Assembly: GCA_019096065.1 (NCBI GenBank)
Contig: JAGUCH010000004.1
Span: 4,588,001-4,652,000 of the forward strand
Direction of reading: 5' to 3'
DNA: 64,000 nucleotides
DNA from: Paracyclopina nana
Lineage: Eukaryota > Arthropoda > Copepoda > Cyclopoida > Cyclopettidae
Shown: positions 52,254-63,935 of the stretch, piece after piece
Layout of the letters: the number at the start of each line of letters is the position of its first letter
Numbering within the stretch: position 1 is the first letter of the stretch
Notes under the pieces: generated by a model
Databases searched by the model: none
What the model was told of the DNA's origin: nothing
What the model saw: only the letters and a program-made list of their open reading frames with translations
Made by a program: the position numbers and the translations under genes

Positions 52254-53112
52254 TCATCTGCAACATTTTGATGATTCTCGCATGTGCTTCCACTCCTCGA
52301 ATTCTTTCAAGTCCTCCTCTCGAGTTGAAAACTGCTTCGGCCTTCGCCTTTGAAGTGGATAATCCTGCTTTTTCCCATCTATGGACGTCAGAATTAGCTC
52401 CATCAAAGTTGTTATGGATTTTTCAAGGCCTTCGCCAGAGAAAGCTGATGTCTCCACATATGGCATATTGTAGCTTTATAAAGTAAAAAAATATGAAATC
52501 TGTGCTTTAATTGCTATAATCAGTGCTATATAGAATGAATACTCTTTGCAAAGCTTGACTGCAGTTGATGCTGATATTTTCCGCTCGGATGCCAAATCAA
52601 TTTTATTTCCGCATAAAATTATTTTGGGGCTACTTGAGTAGGTGTGCGTTTTGAGCTCCACGATCCAATGAGCCACATCCAAAAAGCTTCAATAATAACT
52701 GAAATTATTTTTTTTATAATAATTTAGTTATCAATTGTCTATACCTCTGTAAGTTGGTCACATCAAAAATGAGAACAAATCCCATGGCATCTCTGTAAAA
52801 CGAAGTGGACAAACTTCTATATCTTTCCTGACCAGCTGTGTCCCAAACCTAACACAACATAGCATAAATGTAGCTTTTTGCTAAATATACATGGGTTGTA
52901 TCAATAAAACTGACCTGCACACTAACGCGCCGGTCGTCTCCAGGAATCTCCATCACTTTTTCCCTAAAATCAATGCCCACTGTGGTGCAATATTTATGGC
53001 TGTAGGTGCCATCGAAAAACTGGTGAATAAAGCTCGTTTTCCCAACTCCAGAATTGCCAAGCACCATGATTTTGATGAGAAAGTCGAAATCAGGCTGAAG
53101 CAAATATGTCAT
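52254..53112 (-). CDS. Rab27: Rab27-like small GTPase
   Basis: Membrane-trafficking GTPase; Rab27 proteins control docking and exocytosis of secretory granules and lysosome-related organelles. Exons on minus: 52915-53112, 52745-52848, 52543-52686 and 52254-52473; phases agree, 221 aa, the family length. P loop GNSGVGKTS, switch [12 protein letters not shown], switch [26 protein letters not shown] (in two parts), guanine-specificity CGNKIDL and ETSA. DFDFLIK, GIDFREK and [16 protein letters not shown] are distinctive for Rab27. The C-terminus ends KCCR, a less common two-cysteine geranylgeranylation end. Its stop codon lies about 150 bp from the start of the neighbouring minus-strand gene. Confidence 0.9.
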
Positions 53113-54301
53113 GCTTTTGGCACCTCAAAAAGTTAGCTGCCAAACTAGAACTTTATATTGTAGAAGAACAGTAGCATATAATGCACCTGTTCGCAAGAAT
53201 ATGAGGGCCTTTAAAGACAACAAGTGTAGCAAATGCGATACATCATGATGGAATTACCCTCACGAAATTCATTTGAATAAAATTGTCGGCTGGCCTTGAT
53301 CTCATATATAATAGTGAGCTGAAACAACAGCATTGACTCTTTCCGTGCAAAGCCACTTCCGACGCTCACCTTATAATGTCAAGCCTGATTTTCTTTATGA
53401 AGTTGCCTTGCAAAAAAAATCGTGACATTGTGGGATACCCCAGAGTTATATAGTTACACGTACAGTGCGCATAGAGTATTTTTTGACAATAAATGATTCT
53501 ACATTGATGCACTTCCTGCTTGAATAAGAAGCCGGGTACATTTTTGAGTATGTCTAATTCAGGAAATGGTGCAATGGGTGTTGCGCCAGCCAATGTGGCT
53601 ACATAGCTTCATGCTCTCAGGTCAGGAATCTTAAAATCTGCTTCCTTAGCACCGCAACGCTCACGTGGTATAGATAAAACCAATTCAGCTACAAAAGCAC
53701 AGTGGGAATAATTGCTCCCAAACCGTTTGGCAATTTTCATAAAATCACTGAATAATTTATAGTTGAACACTTTCAGCGTTTTTCACCGTAATTTTAACGG
53801 TGTTTCAACATTTAATAGTGCACATTGTGGCATAGCTAAGACAAGTGTAACAACACAAATCTTTGCTTTACCTCGCTTCGCACATGATACACACACGCCC
53901 TCTTCGCAGTTCAGCTCTTGGTTGCTAAAAGTCATCCCCTGAGCAGATCTGAAACAGTTTCATTCCTTTTTGATCGCTCCAGGGTGACAGTAGTAAAAGA
54001 TACTCAGGTAAGGCTAATTCGCCAATAAAGTTGCTACTCAAAGCCAACATATTTTTTAAAATAAATTGGTATAAGGTTATTTGACTTAATTTAGAAGCAT
54101 CAACAATTATACGATAATAAATAAATTCAATAAGTGTGATTTTGTCTGCTATCTGAATAATATGGCAAATTGTTGCATTTGCGGACTTCTATTACACTTA
54201 CATAGATGCTAACAAATTGCTATGTATAGAAATCAAGGAAGCTTGTTGATCTTCTTGGCACGTAGCACTTAATTTTATAGTATGTATATGCTAATTTGCT
54301 C
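53113..54301. other. Divergent intergenic region Rab27 / Pro-rich gene
   Basis: About 1.2 kb, AT-rich, lying between two genes transcribed away from each other. No gene or repeat was supported. Confidence 0.55.
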
Positions 54302-54309: not shown

Positions 54310-54358
54310 CACCGTATTTTTCCCATAGCAGTAAAGTGATTGGAATAATTTTAGGACA

Positions 54359-54805
54359 ATGAAGTCATTCATCTGCGTTTTGGCCGTTCTGGCTTCTGTG
54401 TCTGCTGACCATCCTGCACCTCACAGGCCTGGCCCATACCGTCCAGCACCTGCACCTTATCGCCCTGCACCTGCCCCTTACCGCCCGGCTCCTGCTCCCT
54501 ACAAACCCGCTCCAGCTCCTTACGTACCTGCTCCTTACGTGCCAGCACCTGCTCCTTACGAGCCCACACCTGCCCATTACAAACCTGCACCTGCTCCCTA
54601 CAAACCAGCTCCCTATGAGAGCTACGAAGACGAGCCTGTGTACAGGTGCCCCAACTATCCTTACTGTGATGATGCTCCTCATGCTCTTGGCCACCTTCAG
54701 TACGAAATTGAAGCTCTCAGGACCAGAGCTGCCGTTATTGAGGCCCATGGCGAGGCTCTTGCCCGCCAAGAGCCCAACAGACCATTTGTTGGCCATGTCT
54801 ACTGA
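54359..54805 (+). CDS. Secreted Pro/Ala/Tyr-repeat protein, cuticle- or matrix-like
   Basis: 148 aa in one exon. A signal peptide (residues 1-16, ending SVSA) precedes about ten tandem copies of APAPY(R/K/V/E)P, residues 20-85. An acidic linker, a CPNYPYC cysteine pair and an Ala/Glu-rich amphipathic helix follow. The Pro-Ala-Tyr repeats recall structural proteins of cuticle, eggshell or peritrophic matrix, where Tyr can be cross-linked; this role is an inference. No Rebers-Riddiford chitin-binding motif was seen. A TATA-like box lies upstream and AATAAA at 54856. Confidence 0.8.
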   Translation: MKSFICVLAVLASVSADHPAPHRPGPYRPAPAPYRPAPAPYRPAPAPYKPAPAPYVPAPYVPAPAPYEPTPAHYKPAPAPYKPAPYESYEDEPVYRCPNYPYCDDAPHALGHLQYEIEALRTRAAVIEAHGEALARQEPNRPFVGHVY

Positions 54806-54861: not shown

Positions 54862-55515
54862 TCACTCAGTCGTTTATTTTCGATTTAAAACATTGAAAAT
54901 GGCACATTTTTGTCTTGAACCAAGACAACAATATAACAACAGAAAAAGTAGGCTCCTCGTTCAATCTTCTGCCAAGCACTCATATCATTTCGCAATCATG
55001 ACTGAATCAGTTTTGTCCTTGAGCAAAATCACTATGTCTTTTTGAAACGCACTATATTCACTGGTTGTTAGCAAATAATTCCATTGATTAGATTGGAATA
55101 CGTTTAGACTCACGGTGCTGTTGCAGCCTTGCCATCATTGCTTGGTCGTGGTACATTTGGTTATTATTCATTGTAGCTTGACGGCGTTGGCTTTTGCAGG
55201 CACCAGCTTCTACTTGCTGATCCTGTAATATGAATTGGTGAATTAAATGAATTTATGGTAAGATAATTTTGATTTGTAATATCTGCACCATTTTAATTGT
55301 GTATTACTTGTACACCTTTGGTCATGTCCATGTGCTATATAATCTGTGTGTTACTTGAAATAGTATACATGTCCAATTTCCCAAGTTCGAGTCTAACCTT
55401 CCAAGAAAGGAATTTTGAAGCTATCCAACATTGGCAACCGAAGAAGATTGACACAGTTCCACAGTGCTTTCTAGTCTAAGTGATATCACATGCATAGACG
55501 GGAATAGATAGAGGT
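54862..55515. other. Convergent intergenic region
   Basis: About 650 bp between two converging genes. No gene was seen; it probably holds the 3' UTR of the DOMON/SEA gene. Confidence 0.5.
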
Positions 55516-58500
55516 CTAAAAGTTAACTTCGTCGCTATAGTCTACGAAAACCCTAAACGGCTGTCGGCTCTCATACTTTCTCTGAGATGGCATGAAGTAA
55601 TGGTCCGGAGCAAAGTCTGAAGGTAGATGGTGGCCAGACGGCCGGCTCTGATAGCCCCGTCTATCGTAGGAACCATATCCTGGAGGAGGTGGAGCTCCAT
55701 AGCCATTAGTTGGCCTAGGCAGGCTGTAGCCTGAGGGAGGACCGCGAGAGTAGCCTCCAGAGGCTCTTGGCCTTTGAAGAGACCCATTGTGATGAGATGC
55801 CATTTGAGGGTGGACCCTGTTACCCGGAGGGAGTGGAGGCATGCCCCTGGGGTCTTGTTCGAAGGGTTCGTATGCGTAATTTGTGTGATGTTGGCCGTTT
55901 CCGGAGGCTGCGTAGTCTTTCCATGAGGAGGGGGGCATCAGTTTGTCCTGTTTGTGTGTATAATTTAACTATAAGAGTACAAATGTTTTTGTTGGTTGCT
56001 AATATTGCCTTAATTTAAATGCTGGGACTATGATATGTGAAATATATGTGATGGCATATGGTGTGCTCTAAGGATATTGTGGCTCAAAGGATACAGGGAC
56101 ATGCTTATGCAAATGGAGCTCAAAATACTCAAGGCATTGAATTGTGTAATAAAAAATAATTTACAAACCTTGCTGCCCGTGGAAGGCTTTTTGGCCATCT
56201 TGTAAATTGTACAGCTTGCCTGAATGACTGCCACAAGGACCAGTGCAGCAATGCAAGCAATCACTATGTACAATTTTGTGCTGGAGAGGAACCCACCAAG
56301 TTCACCCTCAGTGGTTTCTTCAGTTCGAGGCTCAGTAGCAACTGCAAGTATAACAATTCATGATCTGTAATGTCTTTTTAAAAAAATATTCAATTAGTTA
56401 CTTGGAGCTCGCATGGTCAAGGATTGAGGGTCAATTCTGAGACTTCCGACATTGCCACCTTTAGCAGTTTCCTCTAGAGCTTTTTCAACAGTCATGCCCT
56501 CGGATTCGTTGCCCTCGTACTCAGACTTGTCCACAATGACAATCATCTCAGCCACAAATTCTCCAAAGTCATCGCTATGGTATAAATGTCATTTTTCTAT
56601 GCAAGTAGAAATAAAAAGTAGTAGCTATAGTAACCTTTTGAACTTGGTGATCATGACATCTTGGAAACCAGGTACCGTTTTCAAAGGAGTCAAATCTCTG
56701 AGGCTTTTGGAGATTCTGACTTGCAGATCAGTGTATTCTTTGGTGCCCCTTACAGGCAATTGGTAGCTCTCTCCCAATTCCACAAATTTCAAGCTAGCCT
56801 GGTAGTGCAGTTGAACAGGTCTTGGAGTTGTGGTGAAAGTTGGTTTTCCATCAGCATCCCTGCAGTTCCGAATGAAAACTCTCTGTGATGAAGGGATGGG
56901 TGTCTCTTCATGCTTCCTCAGCTTTTTGTTGACTCCGTTGAACTTTCCTCCTCTGACAGGGAAGATCATGTACATGCCCTTGTCGTCTGTGAAGGCAACA
57001 TCTTGGTTATCATTGGTGTTTCTGGGCCTGGAGAATTTTAAGGTGGTGATGCCATCTTCAATCTTGCCCTCGAGTTTCGATAAATCTTGGCTAGCTTCCA
57101 GGATGGGTTGCAAGTACCCTGTGGTCCACATGTCCATAATGAAAAATCGGCCATTGGATTCCACGAAGCCGATAACAGCATCAGTTAAGCTCTGTAAGTA
57201 ATATTGAGATATCAATCAAAATTCATGAACATGTATTCATGAATTAGTAAACAACCGCAGCGTAACCAGTGATATTAATTTTGACGCATAACTTGTCTGA
57301 GTTGTTCGCCTGGATATCATAGAGAGCGGAAGATTTCCAGCGCACGCTACTGAGCAAATCGCGAAGGTCAAAATCTAAGTTAACGCAAATTTAAAAATAT
57401 ACACGTCACACAACCTCAAGTACATAAGTTTGACCTTTGCAATTTTTCGAGCGTTCGCTATGGTCTCAGCTTACTAAAACTTCCGCTCTCTATTTATATC
57501 CAGTCGACCTAGTTGTCTCTCAGACTAGAGCTCAAGCCCAAAAACAGCCACTAGCTTGGGCTGGAAAATTCCCCAAACAGCTACATTTTAGTTGGTTAGA
57601 AATATTTTCTTCATGATGAAATTAAATACCATGACGATATGAAAAAACTTTCTGGCAGTTAATTTAGTGCATGAAGTAATATTCTGAGCAAGCAAAAATT
57701 CAAGTCAAGTTGGCCTTTTTGTTGCATAAAAGCTGCATCTGGTTGCACTGAACAACAATAACAATTGTTTTGCGCTATTCAATTTTCCCGCCAAATTGAA
57801 TGAGTTAGCTGAGCTCACAGCTGATGCCCTGAGCCGCTGACAGAGTCGCCCATAAAAGGTTCAAAACACAGGGAAAGTGAAAAAAATTGTGGTGTCATCG
57901 GTCACCAACATTAGCCGAAACTCAAAAATATAAGTGATCAGCGTTCATAGAGTATGTTACCATTTGAGGAGTGTCTGAGAATCCAATTCCTGTCCATTTG
58001 TCGGTATGAGTGGACTCGATGTGGAAATCAATCATGTCCGAGTTTTCATCGTATTGCCAGCGAGCGAAGTATTCGCAAGTTTTGTCGCCAGTGTTGCAAG
58101 TCCGTGGATATTTCCACTCTCCGCCGCAGAAACCGAGAGCATTTCCAGCATCTCTGCCAATGCTGAGCTTAACCTCGTCGTAAAAATTCATGGTAACTAC
58201 GCCTCGATTTTTCTTTCCGTGATACTTGAGCTCGTCAGGCTTATAAAAGTTTGGAATGGATGGAGTGCCTTTCTCCAATCCTGAACTGGGTTGATGTGAA
58301 TAATCTCCTGGTTCTTGGCCGACTGCCCAAATGACGTGCATGTTTTCGTTCACGATGTCATGGTCACTGAAGCCGTTGCCTTTCAGCTTTTTTCTGAACA
58401 TGATCACCGTCTCTCCGTCACGCTCCCAACCAGCGGCTGCGGTTAAATCATTCGTGCCACCCCAGAAAGTATCTCTGCGAGGTGTTGACCTGTCACGCGT

Positions 58501-61500
58501 GTAGTAGTCCCAGATTCGTGACGAATCTCCGTTCGCCATTCCTATGACAATGTCAGTGCAGTCCATGGCGTGAAATTCGCCCCTAGGTGTGAAGGTAGCA
58601 TCTTTTCCTTCGATGCCTGGTTCGGCTTGCGCATCCCCTGACAAGTCTGATTCAGCCTCTGATTCAGCCTCTGACTCTGCTTCTGATTCAGCCTCTGATT
58701 CAGCTTCAGCTTCTGACTCTGCTTCTGATTCAGCCTCTGATTCAGCTTCCGCTTCTGACTCTGCTTCTGATTCAGCCACGGATTCAGCTTCTGATTCAGC
58801 CTCTGACTCGGCGTCAACTGTCACCTCAGTTGTAGTTTCGGAATACGATTCGTCTTCAGATTGTTGTGCTGCAAGAAAGATCCATGAAAAAAATTTCATA
58901 TGAAAGAAGAAAACATGTGTCAGACCGCACCTTTATCGCCTGGCTCTTGGGTGGTAAATTCTTCGTCTTCAATTTCGTTGAGAAGACCTATGTGGCAGAA
59001 GAAAGTGAGAGATCAACATTTTTATCGAGAAAATTCGTAATTTGACGAATACCTTCTTCCTCAGCTGCCTGTCTCCTCTTTCGCCTGTGTGCCACGCTGA
59101 CACTATGCGTCCGGTAGCCAATGCTGACATCGATGCTCTTGTTGATGACTCGTCTAGCTTTCCTGGTGATTGCCTTCAAGCTTGGGTCTCCTTCATCTGC
59201 AGCCTCGGCCTCGGCTTCGCCAGGCTCTTCCTCGTCCAGAGTCTTACTTTCAACTTCACCCTCTGCCTCGGCCTCACTTTGGCCACCGACTTCCTCGTCA
59301 TCCGAAACCTCTGGCCTTGCAGATTTTTCCTCCCTCCACAATGACCTGGCCGCCTCACTTTTGTCATACAGTTTAGGGTAAATTTGACACTGCTTGGTGG
59401 CCGATTTGGGTCGCCAGCCGATGGCAGCATAGCCCGTTCCCTTCACCTTCATGGCAACTTCAATCTCTTGCGTATCTCGGATAATCCTCCAGAAGAGCGT
59501 GTATCCCGGATTGATTTCTCTCTTGGTGTAGAGTCCCTCAAATAGCTCGGTTTCTTTGAGCGGAGACTCTGAAAAAATGGTAAAAATGGCAAGTGCATTA
59601 AACTGCTTCATGGTATCAGCAAAGGTTATCTGCGTACCCTGAGCGCATCCAGGGCCAAAGTAGCCAAGGTGGCAAAAACATTGCTTCCTTGGTGCGGTGG
59701 TTGCATCCACATCTATGCATCTCCCCCGTTTCCCGCAGTCATCATCTTTGATGCACTCATCCTGGTATTGGCACCTATCCCCATAATAGAGGCGATCGCA
59801 TCGGCACCTTCCTGCCAGCGCTCTTCCATGGCCGGAGCAATCCTCGGCATATTGTCCTGGTGGGACAATATCAACGTCGGCGCATGACCAAAACAGATAC
59901 TTGGAGCTCCACTCCAGAGCTTGCCTGACCAGCCTGATGGTGCAATCTTGGCATTGCAAGTCGTCAGGTATTTCCACTTGGTACGTTTGTGCTCTGTAAT
60001 TAATAGCATATTTTTTTTTCCTTAAGGAGGTGAGGTCAGCTTGGTCAGTCTCAAGATGCCGTTATCAGCCTTGAATCGAATGCGTTTAGTCATGTATATG
60101 GTATGTGAAAAGTTCATTCCAATTACTCTGGCACTAAAGAAGAGAATTTTTGTGGTTCCCAAGTTCAAGGTGAATTTCTCATCATCATGAAATGAGGCGC
60201 CTTTTAGAGCAATCAAGATTTTCCTCTCGCCATGAAAACAATGCGGGCAAGAAAAAAGGTTTTCCTTTTCGGCATTTCTGCCATTGTTTCAAATGATATC
60301 CTTGATGATGAGTTGTTTGCGCCGAATGTATAAATTCTTACTTTCAGCCAATGCAATATGAGAATGCCAAGCTTGGATATTGAGTTTGAAAGGAGCCCTC
60401 GTGAAAATTGCGTCATGAGGAAAAATATTCGAATGGCTCCAAATTGGCTCACGACTCGCTTTGCATATTGGAGGGGGCGTGAACTTTGATCTATGTATAG
60501 GCTTACGTGGTGTCTCCTGTGACGTATTTCTCATCATCTGTGGAGGGTGTTAGATCGCGTACGTGTTTCTCATTGGCATCAAGCAATTCGAGACGGAACC
60601 CGCCCTGATGGGGGTATCCCAAGTGCCAAGTGACATTGAAAGTCGACCCGGCCTTGATAGTCGTTTTGACATCGCCTGCAACGAAAATGAAGGATTTTTT
60701 TCATAAACGATATTCCGCTACATTTTCACACGCGAGTGTGGTAAACATGGCAATTTTCACACCTTAGCGAAAATTAGTAAATCAAACAAAATTAGTAAAT
60801 TTACCCGCCAATTAAATATAATTAAAAGATTCGAAGTGCTCTATTAAAGATAACAGCAAAATAATTGAGACATGCTAACAGAATGAGTGCGCTTGGCTGC
60901 AACCAAATAAAAACCAATTTCCGGCTTTGCTATCAAAGCGTTTAAATGTCACAATTGACTTCCTGCAAGATAAAGCGCGTACGTACGTCGTAATAATATT
61001 TTAGGTTGCAACTTTCTATTCTAAGCTAAAAGAGTCTCACGCTTTGGCTACTTATTCCAACCTCATGCTCATGAATGCCTGCCCCATGCTGAGTAGGACA
61101 GTATGAAAAATACCCATGATGCGCACATGACAATTTTTACCCCTCAGGCTCTTTTGTCTTTTGAAAAATTATTCCAGGCGCGTTGCAATCAAGGGGATTT
61201 TTTATGCATGCCTTGCTCCTTGCCACCCTACCTTTTATGGGTATATAAAATCGAGAAATCAGGGGCGTTAGATTAGGATCAACCACCAGTAGTTCTCGTA
61301 ACCTTGGGCCCAGCCCATCCATTTTTCAAAATTACTGTTCTTGGCGTTAGCATGGTAGTTGCGCAGAAGTATATTAGACTATAGTGAAAATGGATTTTCC
61401 TCTATATCCTAAATTGAAAAGAAGAAGATCCTCCTCCCATAGCACAGCGGTATCATTAATCAGCAAGCCAGGGATGATTCCATTTTTCATGGCCATTTAT

Positions 61501-63935
61501 CACTGATTTCCATTGGCCAAGTGCTACACATGATTGCTCAATATAAGGCAAACACATCATCAATCCAATGTGTGGATCTGATTGAAATTGCTGCATCTCG
61601 CATCGTTGCTATAAAAGTTTCCAAATACTAGGTATAGTAGTTTTACAGTTGTACGCACACTTTTTGCCATAACCTATCCCATCACGCTCGATGGAGCAAG
61701 TAGACAGCAATTAAATTACCAAATGATACATTGTCTTCAAAGCCACTGCAAGCGAAAATTGACGCGGTTAGATACGCACCTTATAGAAAGTATCGTAAGT
61801 TCATGCAGTGATCGTGCATTGTTTTACTCGATTTTTTCAACATACCCGTGAATAATTCGGTGCATGACCGAGCTATTGTCACCTTCTGGCATCGATATTT
61901 ACCGCTTTGCAATTTCATACTATACAGTTGGTGAAATTTCACTTGGTACATTCTATCATGTAGGCAATGGATTATTATTGATTTTGCAATTTTTCCGCTA
62001 ACACGCGTAGCACATATCCAATGTCCAATTCTACCTTGAACATGCCTTAACTTAGGTGATGCTCAATTTTTCTCTCCTTTGAGAAAACATCACGATGGAA
62101 TTGAGAGAAAGAATCGAACCAAAGATCGTGCTGTCCGCATTTGTAAGAAATACGTACCATTTATTGGGCACCATTCTTTGCTGTGAAGAGATGAAAGTGG
62201 ACTGGCTATTTTTGCCCATCGCCGTTAACTTTGAAGGGTCCAAGGATTATTTTGCAATCCTATCAAACCTCTGCATTTTCTGCATAAGCTAGTGTCTGTG
62301 TGTCAACTTGTGGAGGAATTTTTTTCTCACGTTACTACTTTGAAAGTGGAGAGAAATTCACCTTGGCCAAAAGTGTTTAATAATATCCTACTGTTTGTAT
62401 AATATATAGTTTATCATGGCGAGGAGACCCGCCCCCGTTTCTTTTCCCAACTTTGAACAATGAAGGCAAAATCAGAAGGGATTGCAATCAAGCTTGAGCT
62501 TGACTATGCGGCCGGCCAAAGATTGCTTGATTTTATCCGTTAATGGACTGTTAGTATGCTAATGCTGGCATTTGCCAAATTACGCATATACTATACATGC
62601 TACATGGATTTGATGGGCGCCGCATAAAAAGTTTCAAATGCTTACAACATCATCATTAATGTGCCAAGCTGTTCTGTAGACAAATGCTTCCAATTAAAAA
62701 GTACTAATAGGTCTTAAGGGTCAGCCATTAAAAATCCAATTGCATTCTGCTTTAAGGCCTTGGGAGCTGAGAAGTGTCTACAAGCTAAACAGGCACTCCA
62801 AGGAGTTGAACTTCCTCGATTGTTTGCGTTATATTCAGTTTACTGCCTTGGACGTGGGCTAAAAGGTCAACGAGTAATTTTCAAGACCAGAGAAAGGTTT
62901 TGGCGTGATATCAAGCCTCGCTGCACTTATGAGATTTACACCCACGAATTTTGGAAACTCGAGAGTCCAATCGCGAAGAGGCATTTTTTGCGCTCCAAGC
63001 CTAACTTGGTGAAAGTAGATATGGTATACCACCGCATAGGCAGTGTGTGTGTGAATGAAATTTCTTTCAATGCACCACAGCGCAAGTCTCGTCGTTTTTT
63101 AATAGCATGCGACCACAGGAAGCCAATGAAGAGGAAGATGTGAAAAATTCACTCTTGTCTAAATTATTAGTTCCAGTCTATTTAAGGATGTGCCGCATAT
63201 CGTGCACTTTTGCAAATTTGGATTTATAGTGTGCAAATTAAACTCTCTGTACAAGGGGAAGCCTAGCAAAAGTGGCTGAAAAGAGCAATTTTTTGATTGA
63301 TACCTCCTTTTTTGTGCTGATGAATTATTCACCTCAAGGCAATCGCTACATTCTGAAAATATGCCAGCAATTTCTTGAGACCGTAATCAAATTTTGCATT
63401 TTTTCCTGCAACCCGTTTCTTTTGCATGCCTTTTATCTTTGTGGTGTTTTGGATTGGCACGTTGACGCAGTTAAAGCTGGAGGAGAAATTTGACCAAACA
63501 TGCCGCGATGTTTACCATGTAGAAATCCCTGCCAGTTTTGAGTCAAATATGTCCTTTTCACTGCTTGGCTGCTGCGCAGCAGCTGTGCCACATTACGGTG
63601 TATTCTTCTAATTTGGCCGCACAATTGAATGTCGAAAAAACACGGAGAAACTGATTTTTGGTTGTCAAGCACTTTCTACATAATTATCCCCTGCGACGCA
63701 CATATTTTCTTCAATTAGTCGTCGTGTGATTATTCGTGCCTTAATCAATCATACATGACGAAAGCTTGTACTTACTCTTAGGCATTCCGCACGGTGGCCT
63801 TGTTCTGACATTGTCCAAAAAGTCCAAGTCATAGGAACGAGCTGGTGGGTAAGTTAAGCCGACATGAGCCGAGGAAAGCGGCAAAAAATTGGCTAAACAA
63901 AGAGTCACTGTCACAAATTTCAGCTTGAGCTCCAT
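55516..63935 (-). CDS. Membrane-tethered His-first (LPMO-like) / EGF / DOMON / SEA protein
   Basis: Predicted single-pass surface protein of 1166 aa. Exons on minus: 63776-63935, 60507-60675, 59638-59993, 59053-59568, 58931-58987, 57961-58868, 56635-57191, 56402-56574, 56169-56341 and 55516-55947; every phase agrees. Signal peptide 1-23 leaves His24 as mature N-terminus (HVGLTYPPARSYDLDFLD). With His71/His76 (TWHLGYPHQGG) and the FWSCADV end near 147 this resembles a copper His-brace module of LPMO or BIM1/X325 type. Two EGF-like modules follow (about 163-227). DOMON 1 is split: part one about 249-287, part two from about 515. DOMON 2 about 670-825, SEA-like about 845-960, TM about 989-1012, then a Pro/Gly/Tyr-rich tail. 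RRKRR near 390 is a possible furin site. An acceptor at 63975 suggests a non-coding first exon outside the window. Confidence 0.85.
57192..57960 (-). other. Intron of the DOMON/SEA gene
   Basis: 769 bp, AT-rich; no coding or repeat feature noticed. Confidence 0.7.
58632..58820 (-). repeat. Coding Glu/Ala/Ser hexanucleotide-type repeat
   Basis: Within the DOMON/SEA gene the minus strand repeats GCTGAATCAGAGGC-like units encoding (E/S)(A/E) runs for about 60 residues. The repeat lies inside DOMON 1, together with a second acidic stretch encoded at about 59200-59320. It is length-variable by nature and should be polymorphic. Confidence 0.9.
60676..63775 (-). other. 3.1 kb first coding intron of the DOMON/SEA gene
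   Basis: No nested gene is supportable. A plus-strand open stretch at 62760-63143 has no suitable ATG and no recognisable domain. The intron separates the exon for the His-first segment from the rest of that module. Confidence 0.6.

Follow-up and report, generated by a model that had tools for sequence, protein, structure and literature searches.

A nahoda orthologue of the copepod Paracyclopina nana with a predicted histidine-brace head and two DOMON domains on one membrane-anchored chain

The window analysed here, a stretch of 64,000 nucleotides from the copepod Paracyclopina nana, carries on its minus strand a gene that, by sequence comparison, is the arthropod orthologue of Drosophila nahoda (CG12781) and encodes a type I membrane protein. 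Directly after the signal peptide, the protein would begin with a histidine, His24, which together with His76 and Phe144 makes up a predicted copper histidine brace on a domain resembling lytic polysaccharide monooxygenases (LPMOs), and the same chain continues into two DOMON domains with conserved Met/His pairs and a membrane anchor. The explanation that we favour, with somewhat more confidence than doubt, is a membrane-anchored copper head that is fed by DOMON hemes and oxidizes a matrix component. LPMOs need an electron source, and in fungi a separate dehydrogenase can supply it through its DOMON-type cytochrome domain (PMC5960967). Both parts in one membrane-anchored animal chain would, if the explanation holds, offer animals a way to copper oxygen chemistry on cell-surface matrix polymers, outside digestion, and because Drosophila carries nahoda, direct testing by single-residue changes is possible.

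Gene model and the nahoda family

Joined in frame, ten exons running from 63935 down to 55516 encode 1166 amino acids (aa), and 9/9 introns have GT/AG borders. All ten exons align to Tigriopus californicus TCAL_06383 (P0001), with 52-78% identity in nine of them and 26% in exon 5, an acidic stretch of 19 aa. The initial annotation, made from the letters of this DNA, had judged that the exons join in phase over ten exons without a mis-splice; the intron borders and the exon-wise orthology bear this out, and the latter rules out a mis-splice or gene fusion. The length of intron 1 (3.1 kb) could favour an artefact, with exon 63776-63935 coming from a different gene and His not standing at the mature start. 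However, exons 1 and 2 are contiguous in relatives, in both P0001 and P0069 the junction 63776/60675 (CGMPK/S) is enclosed by conserved sequence without a break (34 of 50 and 32 of 48 aligned exon 1 residues identical, respectively), and the same start recurs in 63 sequences, and we give such an artefact practically no credence.

A search with residues 1-245 returned 68 proteins. One of them is from T. californicus, with 73% identity over the N-terminal 245 residues; identity to TCAL_06383 is 61%, with similarity over the full length and the same domain order, which places the gene in the nahoda family. Insect homologues share ~54-61% over most of the N-terminal 245 residues, and the list further holds crustaceans, a horseshoe crab, a millipede and springtails besides many insects and, outside the arthropods, Gordionus, nematodes, Patella, Saccoglossus (‘Nahoda-like protein precursor’) and Trichoplax. 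Sources apply the name nahoda in five of the 68 entries, and members go under ‘uncharacterized’, ‘EGF-like’, ‘DOMON-like ... nahoda’ or ‘Nahoda-like’. Searching with a profile for short proteins brought up 109 matches, mostly short fragments, with the sponge Geodia and the annelid Ridgeia among the named entries. Three short members (Tetranychus, Geodia, Necator) are called ‘Chitin-binding type-4 domain-containing’ by their sources, so the LPMO_10 domain has already been flagged by databases in some members. No vertebrate name occurs among the named entries of the two homologue lists, which is no proof of absence. Since relatives are spread over arthropods, nematodes and molluscs as well as a hemichordate and a placozoan, the family would seem to predate most animal phyla. 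Nahoda and its metazoan orthologues have the same domain order as the window gene and show no difference of kind, the tail and the acidic insert varying among members. Two further nahoda-type places occur in the P. nana genome (92 Mb in 10 contigs), L015 (G000:C2:4164500-4169500) and L016 (G000:C3:617500-622500); their open frames keep a first His, a second His and FWTCAD or FMSCAD, and L016 seems to be without the long acidic insert.

In the literature searched, the only earlier printed notice that we found of the pairing of DOMON/EGF with LPMO_10 is that of Voshol et al. 2019, where such sequences branch off early in an LPMO profile tree, and the biochemistry of the neighbouring Egh16-like family is expected to shed light. 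No paper treating nahoda as a histidine-brace protein or an LPMO-cytochrome fusion was found in a search that left most subscription papers outside. Where the literature found mentions nahoda, it does so in lists and tables only: a deficiency gene list, an EST count, a list of positive-selection candidates, an expression list and a table of accessory-gland markers that names it for the secondary cells (PMC10627254). The symbol CG12781 was found in one paper.

Together with the window protein the homologues form a set of 69 sequences, 63 of which have an intact N-terminal motif; P0051, P0053, P0055, P0056, P0062 and P0067 lack it, their starts looking truncated, and are left out of counts given out of 63. 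Alignment set A1 holds 26 of the available sequences and A2 and A7 hold 47; the sets A3 (n=13), A5 (n=7), A6 (n=4) and A9 (n=20) were picked for spread. The features of the gene, all on the minus strand, are:

55516..63935, minus strand: whole gene, nahoda orthologue, 1166 aa (splice assembly, homologues, exon-wise alignment)
63935-63776, 60675-60507, 59993-59638, 59568-59053 and 58987-58931, minus strand: exons 1-5
58868-57961, 57191-56635, 56574-56402, 56341-56169 and 55947-55516, minus strand: exons 6-10
63867..63935, minus strand: predicted signal peptide, residues 1-23, ending LPLSSA ((-3,-1) rule at His, 63/63)
63864..63866, minus strand: His24 codon, predicted mature residue 1 and first brace ligand (63/63)
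59858..63866, minus strand: LPMO-like histidine-brace domain, residues 24-155, exons 1, 2 and part of 3 (profile and fold comparison)
60623..60625, minus strand: His71 codon, probably no ligand (His in 56/63, elsewhere S, A, V or F)
60608..60610, minus strand: His76 codon, predicted second brace ligand (60/63; aligned with the second His of AA15)
59891..59893, minus strand: Phe144 codon, predicted axial residue in FWSCAD (61/63; aligned with the AA15 axial aromatic motif)
59639..59851, minus strand: EGF-like segment, residues 158-228 (Pfam EGF_Teneurin, 28.6 bits, cut-off 24.3)
59375..59536, minus strand: DOMON1, first part, residues 240-293 (Pfam and profile comparison)
58582..59374, minus strand: acidic Glu/Ala/Ser-rich insert in DOMON1, residues 294-515, with a furin-like RRKR site (composition and site scan)
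58147..58581, minus strand: DOMON1, second part, residues 516-660, candidate heme ligands Met521 (67/67) and His636 (66/67)
56820..58083, minus strand: DOMON2, residues 682-846, exons 6-7, candidate heme ligands Met722 (65/65) and His816 (63/65) (Pfam DOMON, 7.7e-34)
56430..56807, minus strand: SEA-like domain, residues 851-956 (PF01390, 19.4 bits, under the cut-off of 26.4)
56217..56273, minus strand: transmembrane helix, residues 989-1007 (mean hydropathy 2.78)
55516..56216, minus strand: cytoplasmic tail, residues 1008-1166, and stop (splice assembly, exon-wise alignment)

The N-terminal head and its relatives

The predicted mature protein starts HVGLTYPPAR, and its small beta domain runs to about residue 155, closing with FWSCADVDIV. 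The initial annotation was right to put His first but had spelled the start HGLTYPPAR, omitting one Val; TWHLGYPH (H71, H76) and FWSCADV (C147), which it also named, are present in the translation. At the predicted cleavage point the residue is His in every one of the 63 sequences, and by rule-based prediction the residues at -1 and -3 suit signal peptidase, the lead before His24 varying from 16 to 62 residues. Elsewhere the (-3,-1) rule holds in 7-18 sequences at positions -6 to -1, in 0 at +1 to +4 and in 49 at +5. Cys147, Asp149 and Arg130 are likewise invariant, and the near-invariance of His24, His76, Phe144, Cys147 and Asp149, which is beyond chance, supports the histidine brace proposed in the initial annotation. 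His71 was considered as the second ligand and rejected for its poorer conservation. The head has four cysteines, at 49, 124, 127 and 147.

Similarity to LPMOs was found by several routes. Pfam LPMO_10 scores 28.7 bits for the domain alone and 22.1 for the whole protein (cut-off 23), and models of relatives have the immunoglobulin-like LPMO fold, matching AA15 better than X325/BIM1 (13.0 vs 11.1); above E ~1e-3 the Foldseek lists also show the background that is usual for beta-sandwiches, with numerous chains of antibodies, T-cell receptors and complement. Profile comparison with AA15 gives E 5.1e-12 over residues 4-156, His on His; H76 coincides with the second His of the brace and FWSCAD with the axial aromatic motif, the corresponding residues of TdAA15A being His1, His91 and Tyr184 (Sabbadin et al., PMC5823890). 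The protein's own DOMON2, used as a negative control, gave E 0.11. Against solved structures the head domain alone finds AA15 at E 0.08 only, and a 13-sequence profile finds it at E 5.6e-6, the next entries being chance-like ribosomal and tRNA-synthetase chains (E 0.44-0.7).

The head nevertheless differs from AA15 in that 52 residues separate its two His, as against 90 in TdAA15A (PDB 5msz), and with this short spacing the long AA15 segment between them is largely missing. AA15 members are described as having conserved blocks and ten conserved cysteines (PMC5823890), whereas the head, with its four, has neither the MWR nor the GGKCGICGD block found in the AA15-type consensus (A9) and is fused to EGF, DOMON and transmembrane segments. 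In NCBIfam the only match of the N-terminal domain is SCE4755 ‘polysaccharide monooxygenase-like’ (NF043005; 44.6 bits, E 1.4e-11), below the cut-off of 75, and a profile comparison with SCE4755-type proteins gives E 6.5e-17 over residues 46-155, leaving His24 uncovered. PCG, the second His and CxxC are common to both, with YYSCAD there in place of FWSCAD. Five SCE4755-type proteins of 182-223 aa, each scoring above 75, have this domain only in Pfam and NCBIfam scans; their profile matches ScLPMO10C (E 5.3e-4) and 5msz (E 0.0099) among solved structures and AA15 by hhalign (E 2.5e-11). No paper using the name ‘SCE4755’ was found in the literature searched. X325/BIM1 (PF20238), a histidine-brace fold of similar size and different architecture, is a weak profile match, at 23.1 bits (153 aa), 24.8 bits (156 aa) and 21.5 bits (whole protein) against a cut-off of 27. 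Filing the head under AA15, SCE4755 or BIM1 is thus ruled out by the tested features. The profile matches relate the head, the SCE4755-type and the AA15 groups to each other, with the branching order unsettled, and on these comparisons the head forms a branch of its own among LPMO-like domains.

The P. nana genome also has at least three separate AA15-type LPMO genes (L002, L003 and L005, on G000 C4, C3 and C6), which start HARLMEPPSRASMWR or similar; one of them served to find the A9 set, whose match to 5msz has a value of 2.5e-74.

The DOMON pair, its insert and the membrane anchor

The EGF-like, DOMON and transmembrane segments named in the initial annotation are all present, and its SEA domain is matched weakly, with a further weak match of this segment to the TMPRSS11D stem (E 0.0059). 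A hydrophobic C-terminal segment is found in 60 of the 69 sequences. The DOMON assignment is carried by PF03351 (5.2e-50) and by the fold matches of DOMON2 in a model of P0063, and the two DOMONs align with each other, Met on Met, at E 6.4e-8. The ligand counts for DOMON2 leave out P0050, P0054, P0058 and P0066, and those for the second part of DOMON1 leave out P0059 and P0068, in which the respective domain was not matched. Met722 is aligned, though weakly (E 0.14), with a Met of the cytochrome of C. cinerea pyranose dehydrogenase (CcPDH), and with a Leu in DBH (E 4.8e-8), a protein whose DOMON is described as lacking typical heme ligands (PMC4846438). Pfam CDH-cyt (PF16010, cut-off 27) gave no match for the window DOMON2 or the whole protein, and 20.2 and 22.4 bits for the relatives P0064 and P0067; it matched 4 of 7 DOMON2 sequences, the window's not among them, with a best E of 6.5e-5. 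By analogy with cellobiose dehydrogenase (CDH), whose heme ligands are Met65 and His163 (PMC11112829), the conserved Met/His pairs could hold b-type heme. In AA8 cytochromes such as those of CDH and CcPDH the partner is a dehydrogenase, whereas here it is the LPMO-like domain. Elsewhere in the genome, four tandem DOMON matches lie in one open frame of 803 aa (G000:C4:390832-392835).

The insert that splits DOMON1 could be tested in 59 sequences, 52 of which have a basic, furin-like site in it, compared with 3.2 expected after shuffling each insert, although the sequences are related and the 52 are not independent events; 10 of the 69 were left out, having no anchors or an insert below 60 aa. 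The insert is flanked by Cys289 and Cys523, invariant and near-invariant, respectively, among the 26 sequences of A1, and a bond between them could hold the halves of DOMON1 together. Cutting by furin within the insert is a possible means of proteolytic gating of DOMON1. Past the stop, an open stretch at ~55222..55113 on the minus strand continues the phase of exon 9, with AG before it and GTGAGT after it, and is possibly an alternative tail exon or part of the next gene.

Proposed function, alternatives and neighbouring genes

In the mechanism that we infer, removal of the signal peptide before His24 would leave a free amino group that, with the rings of His24 and His76, forms the copper brace on an LPMO-type beta-sandwich with Phe144 in the axial place. 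The EGF segment would act as a spacer between this head and the two DOMONs, each of which may hold a b-type heme by its Met/His pair, as in the AA8 cytochromes that serve fungal LPMOs by passing electrons to them (PMC5960967). Electrons from an outside donor, or from the membrane side, would run over the DOMON hemes to the copper, and the reduced copper would activate O2 or H2O2 and oxidize a component of the extracellular matrix near the membrane. Candidate substrates are chitin, which would be the natural choice in arthropods, or another glycan, perhaps protein, but the existence of placozoan, hemichordate and mollusc relatives points to a more general matrix target than chitin. The more far-reaching proposal, that the family is an ancient, self-sufficient LPMO-cytochrome of the animal cell surface, with a copper oxygenase and two b-type cytochrome domains in one chain and possibly furin-gated, is put forward tentatively and is in our estimate rather doubtful.

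Several observations weigh against a heme-fed copper oxygenase. The brace spacing is short, 3 of the 63 sequences lack H76 and 2 lack F144, and the N/Q/E-x-F/Y/(W) motif given as conserved in LPMOs by Voshol et al. is replaced by Y142-x-F144 and L143-x-W145; one of the 63 sequences has N/Q/E at position 142, and eight have it at 143. The best fold match of DOMON2 is DBH, which is without heme, and a DOMON domain may bind sugar or, as in DBH, no known ligand (PMC4846438). A search of solved structures with the DOMON1 sequence gave two matches (E 0.47 and 1.1), neither of them a DOMON, and the domain is interrupted by the long insert with its furin-like site. H816 and H636 are no more than candidate counterparts of the CDH heme His. 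Finally, histidine-brace proteins without detected polysaccharide activity are on record (X325).

Those proteins lead to the main rival, copper handling without oxygenase activity, in which a brace of the X325/BIM1 kind would acquire or sense copper and pass it to a membrane transporter, the DOMONs being adhesive or reducing Cu(II) to Cu(I). We regard this as unlikely: PF20238 stays under its cut-off, AA15 is the better fold match, and by alignment Phe144 stands where LPMOs have Phe or Tyr, while X325 is reported to have Asp as the fourth copper ligand (PMC10952591). Less probable again is an adhesion or matrix-organizing protein that binds no metal and uses the LPMO fold and the DOMONs as glycan-binding beta-sandwiches. 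Adhesion proteins often carry EGF and SEA domains. The DOMON-containing cuticle protein Knickkopf, which like the window protein has its DOMON at the arthropod cell surface, is needed for chitin organization, and its DOMON is essential for activity (PMC11354708). Knickkopf has two DM13 domains, and the text consulted does not report an LPMO-like head. A purely adhesive role would leave unexplained why His directly follows the signal peptide in 63 of 63 sequences and why the second His, the Phe and the Met/His pairs are near-invariant.

Two further features were noted nearby. On the plus strand, the open reading frame 54335..54805, which adjoins the nahoda orthologue on the opposite strand, would encode a Pro-rich repeat protein (APAPYRPAPAPYK...) that begins in a signal-like way; a Pfam scan gave no convincing match for it. 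On the minus strand, 53124..52849 and its neighbours hold an exon of a Ras-family GTPase (PF00071, 43.3 bits).

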